Assembly (NCBI GenBank): GCA_017476665.1
Contig: JAFUZJ010000001.1
Coordinates: forward strand, 1 to 64,000
DNA length: 64,000 nucleotides
Direction: 5' to 3'
From: Lachnospiraceae bacterium
GTDB lineage: Bacteria > Bacillota > Clostridia > Lachnospirales > Lachnospiraceae
The notes under the pieces were generated by a model, which saw nothing but the letters and a program-made list of their open reading frames with translations, did not search any database and was not told where the DNA came from. Below, one piece after another: positions 2,999-48,955 of the stretch; the first letter of the stretch is position 1; each line of letters starts with the position of its first letter. Position numbers and translations under genes: made by a program.

Positions 2999-4423
2999 TT
3001 ACAATATTTCTATCTGTACCTGTAAAATACGCTCTGTCTGTTCTGTCACTTTATAATACTCACTGATCCGATAACCGACCAGCCACAGCACGTGGGAATC
3101 CTCCGCAAGTACCGGAATGCGGTCCCGCTCCCTCGCCGGAATCTTTGCATCCACCAGATAATCTTTGAGCTTCTTGTGGCAAAGCGCTCCCGCCCCATCC
3201 CGGATGGTCAGAAAATCTCCCTCCGCTCTGGTACGCATGATCGGATATTTTTTCATTTTATCATAATCAAACCATTTCGTATACTCATTTTGAGGAAAAA
3301 TCAGATTTTTTTCTTCCCCGGACAGCACATCCTGCCTGGATAAAATTTGAAATTCCACCCGCTGATCGGGATGCACGGATCCCTCCTGCTGCCATGCCCC
3401 CGACATCACCCTTACTTTTCCATACTCCCGCACAGCCCGGATTCCGAAGGGCAGATGGATCTCTCTGTTCCCTTCCCGCGCCAAAAGCTCCAGCAGCGCA
3501 TCCACATGCACACTTGTGATATCTTTCGCCCCCGGCGACAATGCTTTTATCAGCTCATACAAAAGGCGTTTCCGGATCGCCGGATGCAGCAGCAAAAACA
3601 CATCGCAATCCACAATATACGCCTGCCTGGAAACAGCTCCCTCCAGTACACCGGGCATTGCATCCGCCGGCGCGCAAATCTCCTCCGCACACGCCGCCAT
3701 GGCCTGAGCCGTCTGCTCCGCCAGATAATCCTCCGTCTCCGCCAGAAGCTCCGCCGTGCGACCCATATGCCGCACGCAGCCGGACACAATATGCTCCTCC
3801 ACATAGGGCAGAATATGATGCCGGATCCGATTGCGGGTATAGGCGTCCTCCTCATTTGTGTGATCCCGGCAAAAATCCTGTCCCAATTCCTTCAGATAAG
3901 CTTCGATCTCGCTTCGCTCCACACACAGCAGCGGACGGATCACTTTCCCCCGCACCGCCGGAATGCCGGCCAATCCTTTGATTCCGCTTCCCCGGAACAG
4001 ATGAAACAGCATGGTTTCGCTCAGATCGTTCAGATTGTGCGCCACCGCGATCCGGTCAGCGCCGTACTGAACTGCCGCCCTCTCAAACGCTTCGTAGCGA
4101 AATCTCCGCCCCGCCTCTTCCTCTCCGCAGCCCCACTCCGCCGCCAGTGCAGGCACATCCGCCTTTTCCAGGACATACGGAATATTGTACCTGCCGCAGA
4201 GAGATTCCACAAACCGCGCGTCGTCCGCCGCCTCCGGCCGGATCCCGTGATGCACATGGACCACCGTCAGTTCCATCGGATATCTCCGCTTCCATTCCGC
4301 TAAAACAAGGAGCAGACAAACCGAGTCTGCCCCGCCGGAAACACCTGCCACCACGCGATCTCCCGGCTGCAGCATCCCCTGTTCCTTTATATAGTCAAAA
4401 ACTTTGTCCAACAATTTTGTCAT
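2999..4423 (-). CDS. tilS: tRNA(Ile)-lysidine synthetase
   Basis: TilS changes the wobble C of tRNA-Ile(CAT) to lysidine so that it reads AUA instead of AUG. The N-type ATP pyrophosphatase loop SGGADS sits at residues 29-34, and VHVHHGIR and the HNLNDLSET motif follow as expected. The 474 residues include the usual C-terminal substrate domains. It is tightly packed between spoIIE and hpt. Of note, the tRNA array at 45-48 kb includes a tRNA-Ile with anticodon TAT, which would read AUA without this enzyme. Confidence 0.96.
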   Translation of the reverse strand: MTKLLDKVFDYIKEQGMLQPGDRVVAGVSGGADSVCLLLVLAEWKRRYPMELTVVHVHHGIRPEAADDARFVESLCGRYNIPYVLEKADVPALAAEWGCGEEEAGRRFRYEAFERAAVQYGADRIAVAHNLNDLSETMLFHLFRGSGIKGLAGIPAVRGKVIRPLLCVERSEIEAYLKELGQDFCRDHTNEEDAYTRNRIRHHILPYVEEHIVSGCVRHMGRTAELLAETEDYLAEQTAQAMAACAEEICAPADAMPGVLEGAVSRQAYIVDCDVFLLLHPAIRKRLLYELIKALSPGAKDITSVHVDALLELLAREGNREIHLPFGIRAVREYGKVRVMSGAWQQEGSVHPDQRVEFQILSRQDVLSGEEKNLIFPQNEYTKWFDYDKMKKYPIMRTRAEGDFLTIRDGAGALCHKKLKDYLVDAKIPARERDRIPVLAEDSHVLWLVGYRISEYYKVTEQTERILQVQIEIL

Positions 4424-44439: not shown

Positions 44440-45669
44440 ATGCCCAGAAAAGCAAAAGTACAAGAACCCCTCACTGAAGAAACCATCCTGACAGAAGAAC
44501 CTGTCATGGAGGAGACGCCCAATGATGCTCCTGAGCCGGAACCCACTGGAGAGCAGGACGCACCTGTCGAATCAGATGATGCTCCCGAACAGGAGGACTC
44601 ACCTATCGGATCAGTTGATACTCCTGAATCGGAAGAGCCTGAAGCATCTGATGACATTCAGGAACCGGAAACACCGGATGAGCAAAAGGCTATTGAGCCT
44701 AAGAAAACGAAGGAAAGACCTGCCCCTACCTCCAAGAAAGAAACGAAGCAGCCGGCAAAATCCCCTGCGCCTTCTACCATCCTCACCTTGAATGTGGATG
44801 ACGAGGTGGAAACGCCCCAGAGCCGCGAGGATACCATCTGGCATGAACTGCAGAATGCATACCGCACCCATAAGATACTCACTGGCATCCTCGGCGGTAT
44901 TGAAAGATCGGAAAATGGCAGCACCATCGTTGTCATCTACTATAAGGAGATGCGCGTGGTCATCCCTCTGTCTGAGATGATGATCAACCTGCCCCAGGAC
45001 GACGCCCACGACTACGGTGAACTTAACCTTCGGCAGAACAAGATCCTGGGAAATATGCTCGGATGCGAAGTTGATTTCCTGATCAAAGGACTGGAAAATG
45101 CCAGCCGCAGCGTTGTGGCCAGCCGCAAAGATGCCATGCTGAAGAAAAGGCAGATCTTCTACCTGCCTGATGCTAACGGCAACTCCCGTGTCTGCGAAGA
45201 CCGGATCGTGCAGGCAAGAGTAATCGCTGTGGCCGAAAAGGTAGTCCGTGTGGAGATCTTCGGTGTGGAATGTTCCATCCTTGCCCGCGACCTTTCCTGG
45301 GACTGGCTCGGTGATGCTACCGAAAGCTTCCATGTAGGCGAACAGCTCCTTGTCAGGATACTGAGCGTGAAATGCAATTCTGTAGATGACATCTCGGTAA
45401 AGGCTGATGTCAAGAGCGTGGATGGCAACAGCAAGACCAACCTGAACAAGTGCAAGATCCAGGGCAAATATGCCGGAACCATCACTGACATCTATAAGGG
45501 AACCGTCTTTGTACGGCTCCATATCGGAGTCAATGCCATTGCCCACTCCTGTTATGACAGCCGGATGCCCGGAAAAAAAGACGAAGTGAGTTTTGTGGTG
45601 ACGAAGATAGATGAGGAGCGGAATGTAGCAGTCGGACTGATCTCCCGCATTATCAGACAGAACATATAA
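44440..45669 (+). CDS. S1-like RNA-binding protein with acidic N-terminus
   Basis: 409 residues. About 1-110 is acidic, Pro/Glu-rich and probably disordered, ending in a Lys-rich patch. The rest looks like three OB/S1-type units (starting near ILTGILGGIERSENG, VQARVIAVAEKVVRVEIFGV and IQGKYAGTITDIYKGTVFVR). S1 domains bind single-stranded RNA. It ends against the tRNA array, separated only by a shared terminator. A link with translation of element RNAs is inference. Confidence 0.68.
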   Translation: MPRKAKVQEPLTEETILTEEPVMEETPNDAPEPEPTGEQDAPVESDDAPEQEDSPIGSVDTPESEEPEASDDIQEPETPDEQKAIEPKKTKERPAPTSKKETKQPAKSPAPSTILTLNVDDEVETPQSREDTIWHELQNAYRTHKILTGILGGIERSENGSTIVVIYYKEMRVVIPLSEMMINLPQDDAHDYGELNLRQNKILGNMLGCEVDFLIKGLENASRSVVASRKDAMLKKRQIFYLPDANGNSRVCEDRIVQARVIAVAEKVVRVEIFGVECSILARDLSWDWLGDATESFHVGEQLLVRILSVKCNSVDDISVKADVKSVDGNSKTNLNKCKIQGKYAGTITDIYKGTVFVRLHIGVNAIAHSCYDSRMPGKKDEVSFVVTKIDEERNVAVGLISRIIRQNI

Positions 45670-45675
45670 ACAAGC

Positions 45676-45715
45676 ATCAGGAGCAGACAATCTATATTTC
45701 TTGCCTGCTCCTGAT
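45676..45715. terminator. Shared terminator of the S1-like gene and the tRNA array
   Basis: ATCAGGAGCA pairs with TGCTCCTGAT (10 bp). It lies between convergent transcripts, just beyond the last tRNA. Confidence 0.75.
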
Positions 45716-45724
45716 TATCTTCAG

Positions 45725-45795
45725 CAACCCCTGTGGGAGTCGAACCCACACTGTCGGAACCAAAATCCGATGCGCTGCCGTTACGCCAAGGGGCA
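45725..45795 (-). tRNA. tRNA-Gln(TTG)
   Basis: Anticodon stem TCGGA/TCCGA closes loop TTTTGGT. T arm GTGGG TTCGACT CCCAC. The first acceptor pair is unpaired T-T, common for weak Gln ends. No encoded CCA. Last locus of block 2. Confidence 0.88.
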
Positions 45796-45802
45796 ATATA
45801 AG

Positions 45803-45874
45803 TACCTGTACCTCGAATCGAACGAGGATCATGAGGGTAGAAGCCCCATGCTCTATCCTTTAAGCTACACAGGC
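45803..45874 (-). tRNA. tRNA-Arg(TCT)
   Basis: Loop CTTCTAC in stem TGGGG/CCTCA. Acceptor GCCTGTG pairs with TACAGGT using G-T at both ends. Discriminator A, no CCA. Reads AGA/AGG. Confidence 0.88.
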
Positions 45875-45878
45875 GAAA

Positions 45879-45950
45879 CAGGCGTTAATGGGGTCGAACC
45901 ATTATTTCCGGAGTCAGAGTCCGGTGCACTGACCATTGTGCTAAACGCCT
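45879..45950 (-). tRNA. tRNA-Gln(CTG)
   Basis: Loop CTCTGAC in stem CCGGA/TCCGG. Perfect acceptor AGGCGTT/AACGCCT. Discriminator G, no CCA. Second Gln isoacceptor of the array. Confidence 0.9.
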
Positions 45951-45968
45951 ATATTATTTGGACCTAGA

Positions 45969-46062
45969 TGTCGATGCCGAGACTCGAACTCCGATTGTGC
46001 GAACTGTAACCGCAGGGTCTATCCCAAGAAACGTTCTTTGTTTCTTTTTAGCCCACACCGAC
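45969..46062 (-). tRNA. Aberrant tRNA, anticodon loop reads ACA (Cys), hairpin inserted in D loop
   Basis: Acceptor GTCGGTG/CATCGAC pairs fully, with a T-A that can make an eighth pair. Anticodon stem TGCGG/TCGCA closes TTACAGT, so the central triplet is ACA. T stem CGGAG/CTCGG has one G-G mismatch. A 7-bp hairpin (46026-46046, AAGAAAC and GTTTCTT) sits within the D loop, making the gene 94 nt long without a long variable arm. It may be a damaged tRNA, a processed precursor, or a decoy. Confidence 0.55.
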
Positions 46063-46068
46063 ACAAAA

Positions 46069-46139
46069 AGTTCCCAGAGCGAATCGAACGCCCATCTGCT
46101 GGGTTGCAGCCAGCCGTCTTGCCTTTGGACTATGGGAAC
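46069..46139 (-). tRNA. tRNA-Cys(GCA)
   Basis: Loop CTGCAAC in stem GCTGG/CCAGC. Acceptor GTTCCCA/TGGGAAC. Discriminator T, the expected U73 identity base for cysteine. No CCA. Confidence 0.92.
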
Positions 46140-46144
46140 AAAAA

Positions 46145-46215
46145 TTGTGATGGAGGGAATTGAACCCTCATTGTCCGCGTATCAGACGGATTTCCTACCA
46201 TTGAAAGACATCACA
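46145..46215 (-). tRNA. tRNA-Ile(GAT)
   Basis: Loop CTGATAC in stem TCCGT/GCGGA. Acceptor TGTGATG/CATCACA, discriminator A, no CCA. Confidence 0.92.
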
Positions 46216-46216
46216 G

Positions 46217-46311
46217 CGCAGCTCCTGGGACTTGAACCCAGACACCAGGGAAATGCCCCGATTACTCAGAGATTAGCAATCTCCTGCCTTACCAGTTAGG
46301 CTTAGAACTGC
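46217..46311 (-). tRNA. tRNA-Ser(GCT)
   Basis: Loop TTGCTAA in stem GGAGA/TCTCT, long variable arm, acceptor GCAGTTC/GAGCTGC, discriminator G. Reads AGC/AGU. No CCA. Confidence 0.92.
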
Positions 46312-46312
46312 A

Positions 46313-46388
46313 TGGGGTGTCCGACGGGACTCGAACCCGTAACCTGCGGAACCACAATCCGCTGCTCTACCATTTGAGCTACGACCAC
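46313..46388 (-). tRNA. tRNA-His(GTG)
   Basis: Loop TTGTGGT in stem GCGGA/TCCGC. Discriminator C73 as expected for His. This is the only locus of the array with an encoded CCA. One acceptor mismatch (G4-A69). The base before G1 is T, so G-1 must come from processing or addition. Confidence 0.9.
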
Positions 46389-46390
46389 AG

Positions 46391-46475
46391 CGCAGAGCAA
46401 GGGACTCGAACCCTCATTGCCTCACGGCTACACTGCCTTTCCAAGACAGCCTCTTACCAATTAGAGTAACTCTGC
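46391..46475 (-). tRNA. tRNA-Ser(GGA)
   Basis: Loop TTGGAAA in stem CTGTC/GGCAG, long variable arm, acceptor GCAGAGT/GCTCTGC, discriminator G, no CCA. Confidence 0.9.
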
Positions 46476-46480
46476 ATAAA

Positions 46481-46563
46481 CGCCGCCTACAGGACTTGAA
46501 CCTGCACAACCTCTCGGTTTATCCGCTTTCGGGGCGGACGCCTTACCATTAGGCAAAAGCGGC
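46481..46563 (-). tRNA. tRNA-Ser(CGA) with C33
   Basis: Stem TCCGC/GCGGA closes loop CCCGAAA, so position 33 is C instead of the nearly universal T. Long variable arm, acceptor GCCGCTT/AGGCGGC, no CCA. Confidence 0.85.
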
Positions 46564-46574
46564 ATCATATATAG

Positions 46575-46652
46575 CACTGAGAGGGGGATTTGAACCCCAA
46601 AGGGTTCTCCGGTTTTCAAAACCGGTGCATTCATCCACTCTGCCATCCCAGC
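46575..46652 (-). tRNA. tRNA-Ser(TGA)
   Basis: Loop TTTGAAA in stem CCGGT/ACCGG. Acceptor GCTGGGA/TCTCAGT with a G-T end, discriminator G. First tRNA of block 2, 11 nt downstream of the attenuator's T run. Confidence 0.9.
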
Positions 46653-46663
46653 ATTTTTTCAAC

Positions 46664-46698
46664 AAAAAAACCTTTCCAGATCATGAAATCCGAAAAGG
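46664..46698 (-). terminator. Attenuator terminator ahead of tRNA block 2
   Basis: On the minus strand CCTTTTCGGAT pairs with ATCTGGAAAGG, 11 continuous pairs including two wobbles, loop TTCATG, then T7. Its 5' arm and loop contain GATTTCATG, which can instead pair with CATGAAATC at 46751-46759 inside the leader ORF. Lies between the leader ORF and tRNA-Ser(TGA). Confidence 0.82.
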
Positions 46699-46725
46699 CT
46701 ACCCGAACAGATATGAAGCTGGTTT

Positions 46726-46839
46726 TTATACTTTCTGCTTCAACCTTCTTGATTTCATGCGCACTATAACAGACCATCTGCTAATTCGATGGCTACACTG
46801 GGATGAGCATGAAATTTGGCCGAAATTAACGTTTTTCAT
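46726..46839 (-). CDS. Putative 37-residue leader peptide controlling tRNA block 2
   Basis: ATG at 46839, TAA at 46728-46726, weak AAGGAAGGG upstream. Codons 8-23 read Q-I-S-C-S-S-Q-C-S-H-R-I-S-R-W-S. All but Trp are amino acids carried by the tRNAs immediately downstream (Ser, His, Ile, Cys, Gln, Arg). The ORF contains segment A (46807-46815, ATTTCATGC) and segment B (46751-46760, GCATGAAATC); B pairs with A or with the terminator arm. This is the layout of amino-acid operon attenuators. Translation is not proven. Confidence 0.6.
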   Translation of the reverse strand: MKNVNFGQISCSSQCSHRISRWSVIVRMKSRRLKQKV

Positions 46840-46869
46840 TGATTCTGGTTTCCCTTCCTTGTTTTTTAT

Positions 46870-46898
46870 ATTATATGTCATTTTACTTTTCATGTCAC
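46870..46898 (-). promoter_or_regulatory. Promoter of tRNA block 2 leader
   Basis: GTGACA and TATAAT with exactly 17 bases between on the minus strand; start expected about 46863, 24 bases before the leader ATG. Confidence 0.75.
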
Positions 46899-46917
46899 TC
46901 TACCTGAAGTAGAATAA

Positions 46918-46989
46918 TCGGGACATTCGGACTTGAACCGAAAACCTGCCGCGTATAAGACGGATGCTCTGCCATTGCGCTATGTCCCA
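46918..46989 (-). tRNA. tRNA-Ile(TAT)
   Basis: Loop CTTATAC in stem CCGT/GCGG plus one unpaired outer position. Acceptor TGGGACA/TGTCCCG, discriminator A. Anticodon TAT would read AUA directly; most bacteria use Ile(CAT) modified by TilS. No CCA. Last tRNA of block 1. Confidence 0.85.
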
Positions 46990-46990
46990 G

Positions 46991-47063
46991 TGCCCGCACG
47001 GGGGCTTGAACCCCGAACCTTCGGATTAAGAGTCCGCTGCTCTACCATTTGAGCTATACAGGC
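46991..47063 (-). tRNA. tRNA-Lys(CTT)
   Basis: Loop CTCTTAA in stem CGGA/TCCG, outer pair G-A mismatched. Acceptor GCCTGTA/TGCGGGC with wobble pairs, discriminator A, no CCA. Confidence 0.87.
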
Positions 47064-47084
47064 GTATCCGCAGTATCCTGCAAG

Positions 47085-47156
47085 TGCGCCTGGAGGGAGT
47101 CGAACCCACGGTATACGGGTTAAAAGCCCGTTGCCATTCCGCTTGGCTACAAGCGC
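47085..47156 (-). tRNA. tRNA-Lys(TTT)
   Basis: Loop CTTTTAA in stem ACGGG/CCCGT. Acceptor GCGCTTG/CAGGCGC, one T-stem T-T mismatch, discriminator A, no CCA. Confidence 0.88.
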
Positions 47157-47227
47157 ATATCTTTGCTTATCTTCCGTTTTATGCTTATCTTCTGTTTTCG
47201 TTTCATCTTTCAAATCCTCCTCTATAG

Positions 47228-47325
47228 TTGCGGAAATGGGAGTCGAACCCAATATTTCAAAAGAATTGCTCAGCAATTCTTTACTTATAGAGGCTCGCGT
47301 GATATTCCGTTCAACTCTTCCGCAA
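47228..47325 (-). pseudogene. tRNA-like locus, type II shape, anticodon arm not foldable
   Basis: Eight perfect acceptor pairs (TTGCGGAA/TTCCGCAA), a T arm TGGG TTCGACT CCCA and a 10-bp variable-arm-like hairpin (AAAGAATTGC/GCAATTCTTT). The 35 bases between acceptor and variable arm have the right length for D and anticodon arms, but no anticodon stem forms. Type II form and its block-1 leader (five Leu codons in the control stretch) make a former or altered tRNA-Leu possible. That assignment is inference. Confidence 0.5.
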
Positions 47326-47329
47326 TAAG

Positions 47330-47400
47330 CTCCCTCCCCGGGAATCGAACCCGGATACCGTGATTAACAGTCACGTGTCCTACCGTTGAACGAGAAGGAA
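47330..47400 (-). tRNA. tRNA-Asn(GTT)
   Basis: Loop CTGTTAA in perfect stem CGTGA/TCACG. Acceptor TTCCTTC/GGAGGGA, discriminator G, no CCA. Confidence 0.92.
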
Positions 47401-47403
47401 TCG

Positions 47404-47462
47404 TTGAAGTCATAAGGTCCGATATTTTGTAGATCAGATGGCTGCCATTACCTTATGCTTCA
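47404..47462 (-). other. Short tRNA-like foldback between Asn and Asp tRNAs
   Basis: CATAAGGT and ACCTTATG close an eight-pair stem around about 36 bases containing a second stem CTGAT/ATCGG. There is no T arm. It may be a remnant of a tRNA or a processing spacer. Confidence 0.35.
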
Positions 47463-47463
47463 G

Positions 47464-47538
47464 CGCCCTGTACGGGATTTGAACCCGTGGTCTCCTGCGT
47501 GACAGGCAGGCGGGGACGGCCATCTCCCCTAACAGGAC
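47464..47538 (-). tRNA. tRNA-Asp(GTC)
   Basis: Loop CTGTCAC in stem CCTGC/GCAGG. Acceptor GTCCTGT/ACAGGGC, discriminator G, unusually long D stem (GGGGA/TCCCC). No CCA. Confidence 0.9.
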
Positions 47539-47542
47539 AATA

Positions 47543-47615
47543 TGGAGCTGATGAGGCTTGAACTCACGACCTCCTGCTCGCAAGGCAGGCGTTCTCCCAG
47601 CTGAACTACAACCCC
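47543..47615 (-). tRNA. tRNA-Ala(TGC)
   Basis: Loop CTTGCGA in stem CCTGC/GCAGG. Acceptor GGGGTTG/CAGCTCC contains a G3-T70 wobble, the alanine identity pair. Discriminator A, no CCA. The only non-Ser four-box tRNA in the array. Confidence 0.93.
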
Positions 47616-47619
47616 ATGA

Positions 47620-47701
47620 TGGACCGGGGAGGACTCGAACCTCCGGTGTTTCTCCGTGGGTGATTTACAGTCACTTGTCTTCGCCGCTGGACTACCGATC
47701 C
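47620..47701 (-). tRNA. tRNA-Tyr(GTA)
   Basis: Loop CTGTAAA in stem GTGA/TCAC, long variable arm, acceptor GGATCGG/CCGGTCC, discriminator A, no CCA. Confidence 0.92.
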
Positions 47702-47744
47702 ATGTTTTTTACTATTCTGTTTGTCAAATGTCTTTTAGCTTGTT

Positions 47745-47775
47745 GGGATCAGGGGAAGCGCCAACTTCCTGATCC
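47745..47775. other. Stable spacer hairpin within tRNA block 1
   Basis: GGGATCA plus GGAAG pair with CTTCC plus TGATCCC (12 pairs, two-base bulge) between Tyr and Glu(CTC). No T run follows on the minus strand, so it is more likely a processing or stability element than a terminator. Confidence 0.45.
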
Positions 47776-47807
47776 CCAGTTTTATAAAATTTTTCCCCAT
47801 AGGGACG

Positions 47808-47881
47808 TACTCCGTGCCGGATTTGAACCGAGCATCTCCGCCTTGAGAGGGCGACGGCGTAGCCAATTTGCCTAACGGAGC
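47808..47881 (-). tRNA. tRNA-Glu(CTC)
   Basis: Loop CTCTCAA in stem CGCC/GGCG. Acceptor GCTCCGT/ACGGAGT, discriminator A, no CCA. Confidence 0.9.
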
Positions 47882-47885
47882 ATAA

Positions 47886-47958
47886 TAGCACCTGCGGGAA
47901 TTGAACCCGTCTTTTCCAGCTTGAAGGGCTGGCGTCCTAGCCTTTAGACCAAGGTGCC
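47886..47958 (-). tRNA. tRNA-Glu(TTC) with C33
   Basis: Stem CCAGC/GCTGG closes loop CCTTCAA, so position 33 is C. Acceptor GGCACCT/AGGTGCT, discriminator A, one T-stem mismatch, no CCA. Confidence 0.87.
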
Positions 47959-47961
47959 AAG

Positions 47962-48034
47962 TGGGTGGTAACGGTACCGACCCGTTCTCTGTGGTTCTTC
48001 AGACCACCGCTTTCACCATGTAAGCTAACCACCC
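47962..48034 (-). tRNA. tRNA-Phe(GAA) with non-standard T loop
   Basis: Loop CTGAAGA in perfect stem GTGGT/ACCAC. Acceptor GGGTGGT/ACCACCC, discriminator A. The T stem AACGG/CCGTT closes GTCGGTA instead of TTCGANT, losing the T54-A58 pair. First tRNA of block 1. Confidence 0.85.
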
Positions 48035-48102
48035 TTTGTTCTTTGAAGTGGCTGCTTCTAAATCGTTCATGTCCCATTGTGTTTTCCTCCATCAAACCAT
48101 TA

Positions 48103-48145
48103 AAAAAGGGAACTGTCTTTGGTTTATTCCTCAGACAATTCCCTG
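48103..48145 (-). terminator. Attenuator terminator ahead of tRNA block 1
   Basis: On the minus strand GGGAATTGTCT pairs with AGACAGTTCCC, 11 continuous pairs with one wobble, followed by T6. Its 5' arm TTGTCTGA and GGG can instead pair with TCAGACAA and CCC at 48194-48204 within the leader ORF, with a two-base bulge. Confidence 0.82.
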
Positions 48146-48172
48146 GATTTCTGCATTCACAAACGGACGGTA

Positions 48173-48361
48173 TCATCCACCGTTTCTGCACCTGGGTTGT
48201 CTGATCACAGCATGATATTTTTCTTCCAATTTGGATATAAGGTCATAATCATAGCGCTCCAAATCCATAATAAAGGCAAAATTTGCGCGCAGGAAATCAA
48301 GGCTCATAAACAGTGAGCTAAGGCAATTCATATTCTGCTTTTGAACTCTTGTCTTCTGCAT
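48173..48361 (-). CDS. Putative 62-residue leader peptide controlling tRNA block 1
   Basis: ATG at 48361 with GAGGAG nine bases upstream. Codons 21-51 are dense in Asp, Phe, Ala, Asn, Ile, Glu, Tyr and Lys (for example F-A-F-I-M-D and E-R-Y-D-Y-D): 21 of 31 are amino acids of the block-1 tRNAs, and five more are Leu. The antiterminator segment (48194-48204) starts about 20-30 nt before the stop codon, the same geometry as in the block-2 leader. It could instead be an ordinary small protein; I recognise no family. Confidence 0.6.
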   Translation of the reverse strand: MQKTRVQKQNMNCLSSLFMSLDFLRANFAFIMDLERYDYDLISKLEEKYHAVIRQPRCRNGG

Positions 48362-48397
48362 GATCTTTCTCCTCATCCAAATTCTTAACTGTAACAA

Positions 48398-48456
48398 AAA
48401 AGGAAGCGCTCCTATTTCTTTGTATCAAAAAGAAAAGGATTGGCGCTTCCTTTGAA
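48398..48456 (-). terminator. Long hairpin with T run at the 5' end of the block-1 leader
   Basis: AAAGGAAGCGC pairs with GCGCTTCCTTT, with further inner pairing, then T6 on the minus strand. It follows the BlaI-like gene and begins where the 48460-48488 promoter should start its RNA. So it either ends BlaI transcripts, forms a 5' cap structure of the leader RNA, or is a first attenuation step. Confidence 0.65.
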
Positions 48457-48459
48457 AGT

Positions 48460-48488
48460 ATAATAGCACTGAAAAAAACATCTGTCAA
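48460..48488 (-). promoter_or_regulatory. Promoter of tRNA block 1 leader
   Basis: TTGACA and TATTAT with exactly 17 bases between on the minus strand. It is one of the best sigma-A matches in the window. Confidence 0.8.
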
Positions 48489-48544
48489 CTACTTTTTTGA
48501 AAAATTTTTTTCTCCCCAAATGGTGAAACACCGCCAAACAGCTA

Positions 48545-48955
48545 TCAAAGTGTCTTCTCATACTCCCTGACCGCTTTTTTCATCTGCGCGATTTCATTTT
48601 TCTTTTCCGCATCTGACTCCGTATCCATCTCCAAAAGGTAGGCACATACATCCCTTAATGAAACAATGTATGCTACGCTGCTGTACATCTGCTTGAAATG
48701 CTCCGTAATTGTCTCCAGACATGTTGCGCTTGGCTTATACATCCTGCTCAGAACTTTTCCACTATGGGTAACACCATCCACTTCCACAAGATTTTCCCGC
48801 AGCATCTTTCTGAGAACGGCCGTAACCGTACTTTGTGTGAGTCCCTTTCTCCTCCCCACGATCTGCGTTGCAGTAAGGCTCTTATCCGATCCACATAAAA
48901 TAGATAAAACGTCCATCTCTCTCTGATTAAGCAATTTTCTTTCCTCCATAATCAT
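48545..48955 (-). CDS. BlaI/MecI-like winged-helix repressor
   Basis: 136 residues. The first 75 form a BlaI-type winged helix (LNQREMDVLSILCGSDKSLT, then a recognition helix in GLTQSTVTAVLRKMLREN). The C-terminal half is helical and acidic. BlaI-type repressors bind as dimers and are often cleaved by a partner protease, which is not seen here. It lies upstream of the tRNA array in the same direction and may regulate it or itself. Confidence 0.75.
   Translation of the reverse strand: MIMEERKLLNQREMDVLSILCGSDKSLTATQIVGRRKGLTQSTVTAVLRKMLRENLVEVDGVTHSGKVLSRMYKPSATCLETITEHFKQMYSSVAYIVSLRDVCAYLLEMDTESDAEKKNEIAQMKKAVREYEKTL

Follow-up and report, generated by a model that had tools for sequence, protein, structure and literature searches.

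The trp, his and leu leaders of Escherichia coli are ribosome-mediated transcription attenuators. The locus described here resembles this type of attenuator in its short leader open reading frame (ORF) with control codons, its mutually exclusive RNA segments and its intrinsic terminator. It differs in that the controlled genes would be tRNA genes, not biosynthesis genes, in that the control codons span a whole tRNA block, and in that one pairing segment (B) lies inside the ORF. T-box leaders of Firmicutes are leader RNAs with a terminator that sense tRNA, whereas sensing here is predicted to go through the translating ribosome, and the leader has no Rfam match. All 20 Rfam gathering matches in the window (the whole 64,000-nt stretch of Lachnospiraceae bacterium DNA analyzed here) were tRNAs, with none at the leader and none to a T-box model.

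A leucine-rich attenuator peptide has been described in a member of the Firmicutes, Staphylococcus aureus (PMC5794164). The trn operon of Anabaena comprises 26 tRNAs on a megaplasmid and is reportedly kept silent by the TrcR repressor until translational stress (PMC10272220). An accessory tRNA array that is kept silent and induced by stress is predicted here too; the control in Anabaena is by a DNA-binding repressor, whereas the predicted control here is by a leader in cis that senses single codons. Clusters of tRNA genes in phages and plasmids answer tRNA-cleaving defenses (PMC10264068, PMC11555353, PMC12803027). These clusters are likewise accessory tRNA genes, some of them large arrays on mobile elements, but leader-peptide control does not appear in the parts of that literature covered.

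Among the literature matches listed, which cover subscription journals thinly, we found no leader peptide controlling tRNA genes. The mechanism proposed below is already known; its target (tRNA genes) and its design are new. If the proposal is true, these would be the first tRNA genes under leader-peptide attenuation known to us, and the regulated product would be the sensed molecule. It would also give a testable answer to why mobile elements carry large tRNA arrays, namely as a silent stock freed blockwise upon tRNA loss, and the leaders would be natural reporters of tRNA depletion.

A candidate leader within a tRNA array

ARAGORN detected an array of 20 tRNA genes on the minus strand of the window, from 48034 to 45724 (~2.3 kb). 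The leader of the Ser block sits within this array and has ten tRNAs upstream of it. The array is flanked on one side by a VirB4/TraG-type ATPase, a VirD4-type coupling protein and an S1-domain protein, and on the other by an NAD-dependent DNA ligase and an impB/mucB-type polymerase. It is a dense tRNA run on a conjugative (mobile) element. The same genome (G000) carries a second tRNA array on contig C21. Genome-wide, we counted at least 68 tRNA matches (150 of 172 candidates scored), of which 20 belong to the window array, another 20 to C21 and the remaining 28 to other parts of the genome. Plasmid and phage blastn searches returned tRNA-sized matches only, covering at most 7% of the query (best 20 of 190 and best 20 of 132 records). 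When the short flanks of sibling arrays were compared with 12 proteins of the window element, the polymerase alone matched (26%, G137). Where records of sibling arrays are named, they are Lachnospiraceae; two of them are filed as Acetatifactor and one is labeled as from sheep rumen.

Table 1. Features of the tRNA array and its candidate leaders in the window
Feature	Position	Strand	Remarks
Main array promoter, TTGACA-17-TATTAT	48460..48488	-	11/12 consensus match
ORF0, 62 aa, first ORF of the array	48176..48361	-	conserved ...IRQPRCRNGG end
Terminator-like hairpin T1, between ORF0 and Phe/Glu ORF	48107..48144	-	-19.6 kcal/mol
ORF before Phe/Glu block, MGHERFRSSHFKEQ...	47937..48077	-	runs through tRNA-Phe
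Lys-block ORF, MKRKQKISIKRKISKDMRL	47147..47206	-	ends 10 nt inside tRNA-Lys(ttt)
Ser-block leader promoter, GTGACA-17-TATAAT	46870..46898	-	11/12 consensus match
Leader ORF, 37 codons, MKNVNFGQISCSSQCSHRISRWSVIVRMKSRRLKQKV	46726..46839	-	control codons 8-23
Segment A (ATTTCATGC), predicted partner of B	46807..46815	-	A:B-bearing helix paired in 98.6% of cells, six arrays
Segment B (GCATGAAATC), predicted partner of A or C	46751..46760	-	
Segment C, terminator 5' arm and loop, predicted antiterminator partner of B	46682..46690	-	96.3% of cells paired, six arrays
Intrinsic terminator with T7, just upstream of tRNA-Ser(tga)	46664..46700	-	100% of cells paired, six arrays
Regulated (Ser) block	45724..46652	-	Ser(tga,cga,gga), His, Ser(gct), Ile(gat), Cys(gca), ACA-anticodon tRNA, Gln(ctg), Arg(tct), Gln(ttg)
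ACA-anticodon tRNA, palindromic D-loop insert	45969..46062	-	ACG in six sibling arrays; not in ARAGORN list

The promoter, the 37-codon ORF, segments A, B and C and the terminator were all found on the minus strand where the initial annotation had placed them (Table 1). Only two promoters reach an 11/12 match in the region 45600-48700, one before the leader (46898-46870) and the main array promoter (48488-48460), and NTGACA-N17-TANNNT directly precedes the Ser-block leader in 7/7 arrays. Beside the -35 element of the Ser-block promoter, we noticed by eye a small dyad, CTAC..GTAG (46899-46914), which is changed on both sides in the G045 array (GCTACC/GGTAGC) and is a possible operator.

A short ORF with a putative ribosome-binding site lies between promoter and terminator, as in attenuators of this class. 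The window has GAAGG 14-18 nt upstream of the leader ATG, a loose spacing, and sibling leaders have purine-rich sites. Folded as a single strand, the leader RNA gave z = -2.4, with 4/200 shuffles folding as well. The terminator helix has 12 pairs (-12.9 kcal/mol at 39 °C) and is followed by the T7; from the end of the terminator to tRNA-Ser(tga) (46652) there are 11 nt. Because of this position, the downstream block would need read-through, barring a promoter within the tRNAs themselves.

Leader codons and conservation among related arrays

We searched 138 genomes of one Lachnospiraceae genus and obtained matches to the leader region in seven. Intact leaders number six, in five genomes (the window and C21 in G000; G011, G018, G045 and G155). 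The seventh array, in G137, keeps its tRNAs, and one deletion inside its leader ORF removed A together with the control codons. We dropped G146 as a homologue, as its match is 28 nt long with no tRNA in the 13 kb of sequence around it. In a search of 99 genomes including 38 outside the genus, the three matches in the latter were 40-55 nt long and lay at the tRNA end of the query. A pattern scan of the genome collection returned 25 stretches; of the first 12 read, four are true leaders (L026, L036, L039 and L040, which are the G018, G011, G155 and G045 arrays, respectively) and eight are not. None of the other 13 has B or continues like the leader, and these were rejected.

The leader is conserved in the six arrays, whereas the spacer 3' of its stop codon has diverged. 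The consensus of the control run is Q-I-S-C-S-S-Q-(R/C)-(S/N)-(H/Q)-(R/Q)-I-(S/I)-R-W-(S/L/F). For the six leaders, which are related and are not independent samples, pN/pS was 0.30 (0.105/0.327 when A and B are excluded). In the terminator, 6/12 pairs show a change on one side that preserves pairing, and none is changed on both sides (six arrays). Double compensatory changes were found in none of A:B, B:C and the terminator among the six arrays, and G018 has one pair broken in A:B and one in B:C; covariation carries little weight here because A, B and C are almost invariant. The mutually exclusive A:B, B:C and terminator helices are nevertheless predicted to be kept in the homologues. The reading of the initial annotation required homologues to retain the ORF, the A/B/C pairing and the codon content of the leader, and 6/7 arrays do so.

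The control codons match the product of the genes downstream. In the window, 14/16 codons of the run 8-23 are read by tRNAs of the downstream block and 0/16 by the ten upstream tRNAs (ARAGORN tRNAs, plain wobble rules), in agreement with the claim of the initial annotation that the run is, but for one codon, drawn from the downstream set; CGA and TGG have no reader in that block. Counted by tRNA, 9/10 downstream and 0/10 upstream genes have a codon in the run, Ser(cga) being the downstream exception (ARAGORN-detected tRNAs). The corresponding counts of ARAGORN-detected tRNAs, downstream versus upstream, were 7/7 versus 0/8 in C21, 6/6 versus 0/11 in G018, 8/9 versus 2/16 in G045, 9/9 versus 0/1 in G011 and 10/11 versus 1/16 in G155. 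Detected tRNAs read 8/16 control codons in C21, 9/16 in G018, 10/16 in G045, 13/16 in G011 and 14/16 in G155. The unread codons of C21 are CAA, ATT, TCA, CGC and CGA; in its block, Ser(tga), Gln(ttg) and Arg(acg) are present as pieces of interrupted genes, and an interrupted Ile gene was seen by eye. All 16 core residues belong to the block set (binomial 1.1e-9 against the element's own composition, for a run picked after inspection).

Some codons and tRNAs do not correspond. The Trp codon had been described as outside the tRNA set, which holds for the window, G045 and G155, three arrays that retain the codon without a tRNA-Trp, and fails for C21, G011 and G018, where tRNA-Trp is present. The G045 leader retains TCA and TCT codons though its array lacks Ser(tga) and Ser(gga). 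G018, in contrast, shows a correspondence: tRNA-His was not detected there, and CAG stands at the position of the His codon of the other leaders.

In the tRNA list of the initial annotation, the second Cys tRNA (46062-45969) needs correction. This gene, missed by ARAGORN, lies between Cys and Gln(ctg) and has the anticodon loop TTACAGT (ACA, codon UGU) in the window, whereas its orthologues in six arrays have CTACGAC (ACG, Arg). In the leader, codon 15 (codon 17 of G011 and G155) reads TGT in the window, against CGC or CGA in all five of the remaining intact leaders, and it is the sole residue difference between the 16-residue runs of the window and C21. The joint change of codon 15 and anticodon is a single event; the tRNA is possibly decaying and the co-change possibly fortuitous because the gene has a D-loop insert, shared with C21, and a diverged sequence.

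As a control, we scored the gap ORFs of 81 viral tRNA arrays (89 loci), 59 of them with a scorable ORF, in the same way as the window's. One viral locus, L175 (1.1e-11), beats the window (3.7e-9), and the next viral score is 5.5e-7. Under the same scoring, C21 (2.4e-9) and G155 (9.3e-10) are window-like, whereas G045 (1.6e-7), G018 (1.2e-5) and G011 (1.8e-4) show little or no excess, so that three of the six fall inside or near the viral range. The scores of G011 and G018 lie there in part because blocks were cut at gaps of at least 200 nt, which interrupted tRNAs create. Scans of viral contigs with four DNA patterns and one protein profile found no array with these leaders; among 59 viral pattern loci, L075 has three tRNAs and the others have none. 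In the L175 locus (785-1173 of a viral contig), a Cys/Tyr-rich ORF (MVYYYCHYCPYCGCCKVCPRDPHCVCYYC) precedes Cys and Tyr tRNAs, from which a second small ORF separates it. This ORF may reflect chance, a Cys-rich peptide or a similar leader.

Modeled ribosome switch and proposed mechanism

To model a ribosome on the leader, we treated the RNA as covered to 13 nt past the first base of the A-site codon and folded the remainder at 39 °C. In the window, the modeled probability of the terminator, P(terminator), was 0.86 without a ribosome. With a ribosome at codons 2-6 it rose to 0.98-1.00; it was 0.67 for codon 7, fell to 0.03-0.33 over codons 8-23 and returned to 0.98-1.00 over codons 24-38. The initial annotation had proposed that stalling at the control codons disrupts the terminator, and the model reproduces this, opening over codons 8-23 and neither before nor after. 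Recoded or reordered leaders fail to do so: none of 300 synonymous recodings and none of 300 codon-order shuffles reproduced the switch when scored with the window's thresholds at six control and three early codons, and those opening at control codons at all numbered 18 and 1, respectively.

The terminator is predicted to open with a ribosome at the control codons clearly in 4/6 arrays at equilibrium and partially in 2/6. C21 was modeled as open at codons 6-24, G045 at codons 7-23 (0.44 at 24) and G155 at codons 10-25 or 26 (0.57 at 9, 0.25 at 26). In these three arrays P(terminator) was at least 0.83 before the open zone, boundary codons excepted, and at least 0.95 after it. The equilibrium switch was partial in G011 (0.52-1.00 over the control codons) and partial and uneven in G018 (0.20-0.88 over the control codons, 0.60-0.64 at early codons). 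When only the RNA up to C was folded, before the 3' arm is made, the modeled B:C probability was 1.00 at control codons in all six arrays. The G137 leader, which has no A, was modeled as open without a ribosome (P(terminator) 0.0) and closed with a ribosome at codon 9 or beyond.

These data suggest that the Ser tRNA block is probably under ribosome-mediated transcription attenuation by the leader ORF, a reading based on the sequence, its conservation and the predicted switch, that is, on comparative and computational evidence. The leader is presumably both transcribed and translated. A polymerase starting from the promoter at 46898 would meet the terminator just ahead of the tRNAs. With no ribosome on the leader, or with a ribosome past codon 23, A:B would pair or B would be covered, and the terminator would form. 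A ribosome waiting at any of codons 8-23 for a missing charged tRNA would hide A, so that B:C would pair and the terminator would open. The Ser, His, Ile, Cys, Gln and Arg tRNAs, and Trp too in some siblings, would then be made. Because nearly every tRNA of the block has at least one codon in it, the control run would work as an OR gate over the block. We infer that the natural trigger is tRNA loss, for example through cleavage by toxins or defense nucleases, and not amino-acid hunger, because the run polls many codons and the product is tRNA.

Other reading frames of the arrays and alternative readings

Leader-like ORFs before other blocks of the same arrays were not mentioned in the initial annotation. 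An ORF reading M-L-(R/L)-L-R-L-x-L-Q-(L/M)-N lies ahead of the Leu block in C21, G018, G045, G155 and G137, and its 3' end lies 39 nt inside tRNA-Leu(taa) in C21, G018, G045 and G137, the four read through. The window has neither Leu block nor Leu ORF, and the G011 contig begins past that place. The Leu excess is modest against the element's composition (binomial 0.0017-0.06 per array). A Lys ORF precedes the Lys block in 7/7 arrays, with a gap of 58 nt in G155. We observed AAG codons in the Lys ORFs of the window (2), C21 (2) and G045 (4), the three whose blocks contain Lys(ctt), and no AAG in those of G011, G018, G137 and G155, where Lys(ttt) is the sole Lys tRNA. The Lys/Ile excess is clear in the window, C21 and G045 (binomial 3e-6 to 6e-4) and not in G011, G018 and G137 (0.11-0.29). 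By eye, no terminator was seen separating either the Leu or the Lys ORFs from their tRNAs. Both ORFs look like further sensors with an output step other than that of the Ser block.

Beyond the Ser block, we regard as evenly balanced the broader proposal that the arrays are modular, self-sensing tRNA replacement kits. Each block would be led by an ORF made of its own tRNAs' codons, codons and anticodons would co-evolve, and loss of any tRNA of a block would switch on that block. Attenuation would be the means of the Ser block; the Leu and Lys blocks, and possibly the Phe/Glu block, would use a different route, such as ribosomes that run into the first tRNA or are kept back from it. Pairing between leader and tRNA was rejected as the mechanism for the Leu, Lys and Phe/Glu ORFs, being inconsistent across arrays.

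The ORF before the Phe/Glu block was rejected as a cognate leader: its excess is marginal (0.04-0.05) and it fits the Ser-block set about equally (0.025-0.28). Its pattern occurred in the window's genome only among 397 family genomes. ORF0 is present in 9 copies in 6/138 genus genomes, each followed by tRNA genes, and in these 138 genomes it was found nowhere except before these arrays; among 299 family genomes it was found in the window's genome only. Its length is 62-65 aa, the IRQPRCRNGG end is kept in 8/9 copies, 28 residues are invariant in five copies, and the G137 copy had no Pfam match. ORF0 and T1 were rejected as a second attenuator, with no clear ribosome-dependent switch in the window, G018, G045 or G155; P(T1) was at least 0.89 throughout these four arrays except at three G018 codons (0.70, 0.65 and 0.49). 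A further terminator-like hairpin was seen by eye right behind the main array promoter (48396-48450).

The same attenuator might sense ordinary amino-acid starvation, with the rise in tRNA supply as a by-product. Leaders of the trp/his type behave in this way, and an uncharged tRNA would cause a stall like that of an absent one. We consider this unlikely, however, as the run samples seven amino acids and, for a single amino acid, more than one isoacceptor (TCA, TCC, AGC; CAA, CAG), which would be superfluous for a sensor of a single amino acid, and more uncharged tRNA would presumably bring no relief. A decay of the arrays, with the leader left as a remnant of past regulation, would account for the interrupted tRNAs in the window, C21, G011, G018 and G137 and for the missing control codons of G137, yet six leaders remain open and constrained though the spacer diverges, and we judge a relic quite improbable.

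Terminators and short ORFs are common, this terminator does follow an upstream tRNA block, and a scan of the region turned up 5 terminator-like sites where 3.2 were expected. The terminator could be an ordinary one serving the upstream tRNAs, beside an unrelated small ORF with chance pairing, the downstream tRNAs being made by read-through. The conserved promoter that separates the upstream block from the ORF, the pN/pS of 0.30, the codon match and the switch controls make this highly unlikely. It is barely credible, finally, that the ORFs encode small functional peptides such as regulators instead of being leaders. ORF0, a conserved protein whose terminator shows no clear switch, fits such a role, but the Ser, Leu and Lys ORFs track the tRNAs of the block that each precedes, and the 3' end of the Leu ORF falls within a tRNA gene.

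Several minor features recur in the arrays. The tRNA genes are often interrupted by short loop palindromes, in the window at 45969-46062 and ~47228-47325, in C21 (L015), and in L017, L018, L052 and L125; these interruptions were mostly found by eye, and Arg(acg) was aligned. The interrupting hairpins differ in sequence within C21. One shared hairpin (CCGGATCNNNGATCCGTGCGC) recurs in G018, G011 and G137, and all 6 copies in those three genomes lie within tRNA arrays. A small Cro/CI-type HTH protein lies between the terminator and the first tRNA in C21 and G018 (L015 ~3953-4177, L018 ~3750-3975), and a ribonuclease H-like protein (PF04308; G045 copy scanned) lies inside several arrays (L015 5210-5716, L019 3509-4000, L126 1622-2113). 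By eye, a conserved element of ~62 nt (window 47401-47462), unlike a normal tRNA in that no T arm was seen, stands mostly just 5' of tRNA-Asn. Its outer stem is TGAAG/CTTCA, and its second stem varies with pairing kept (TAAGG/CCTTA, TAGGG/CCCTA, GGGG/CCCC). Most arrays also have a conserved hairpin like GGGGATCAGGAAGTTGGCGCTTCCCCTGATCCC after the Glu tRNAs (window 47703-47806), with a stem that differs on both sides (by eye).
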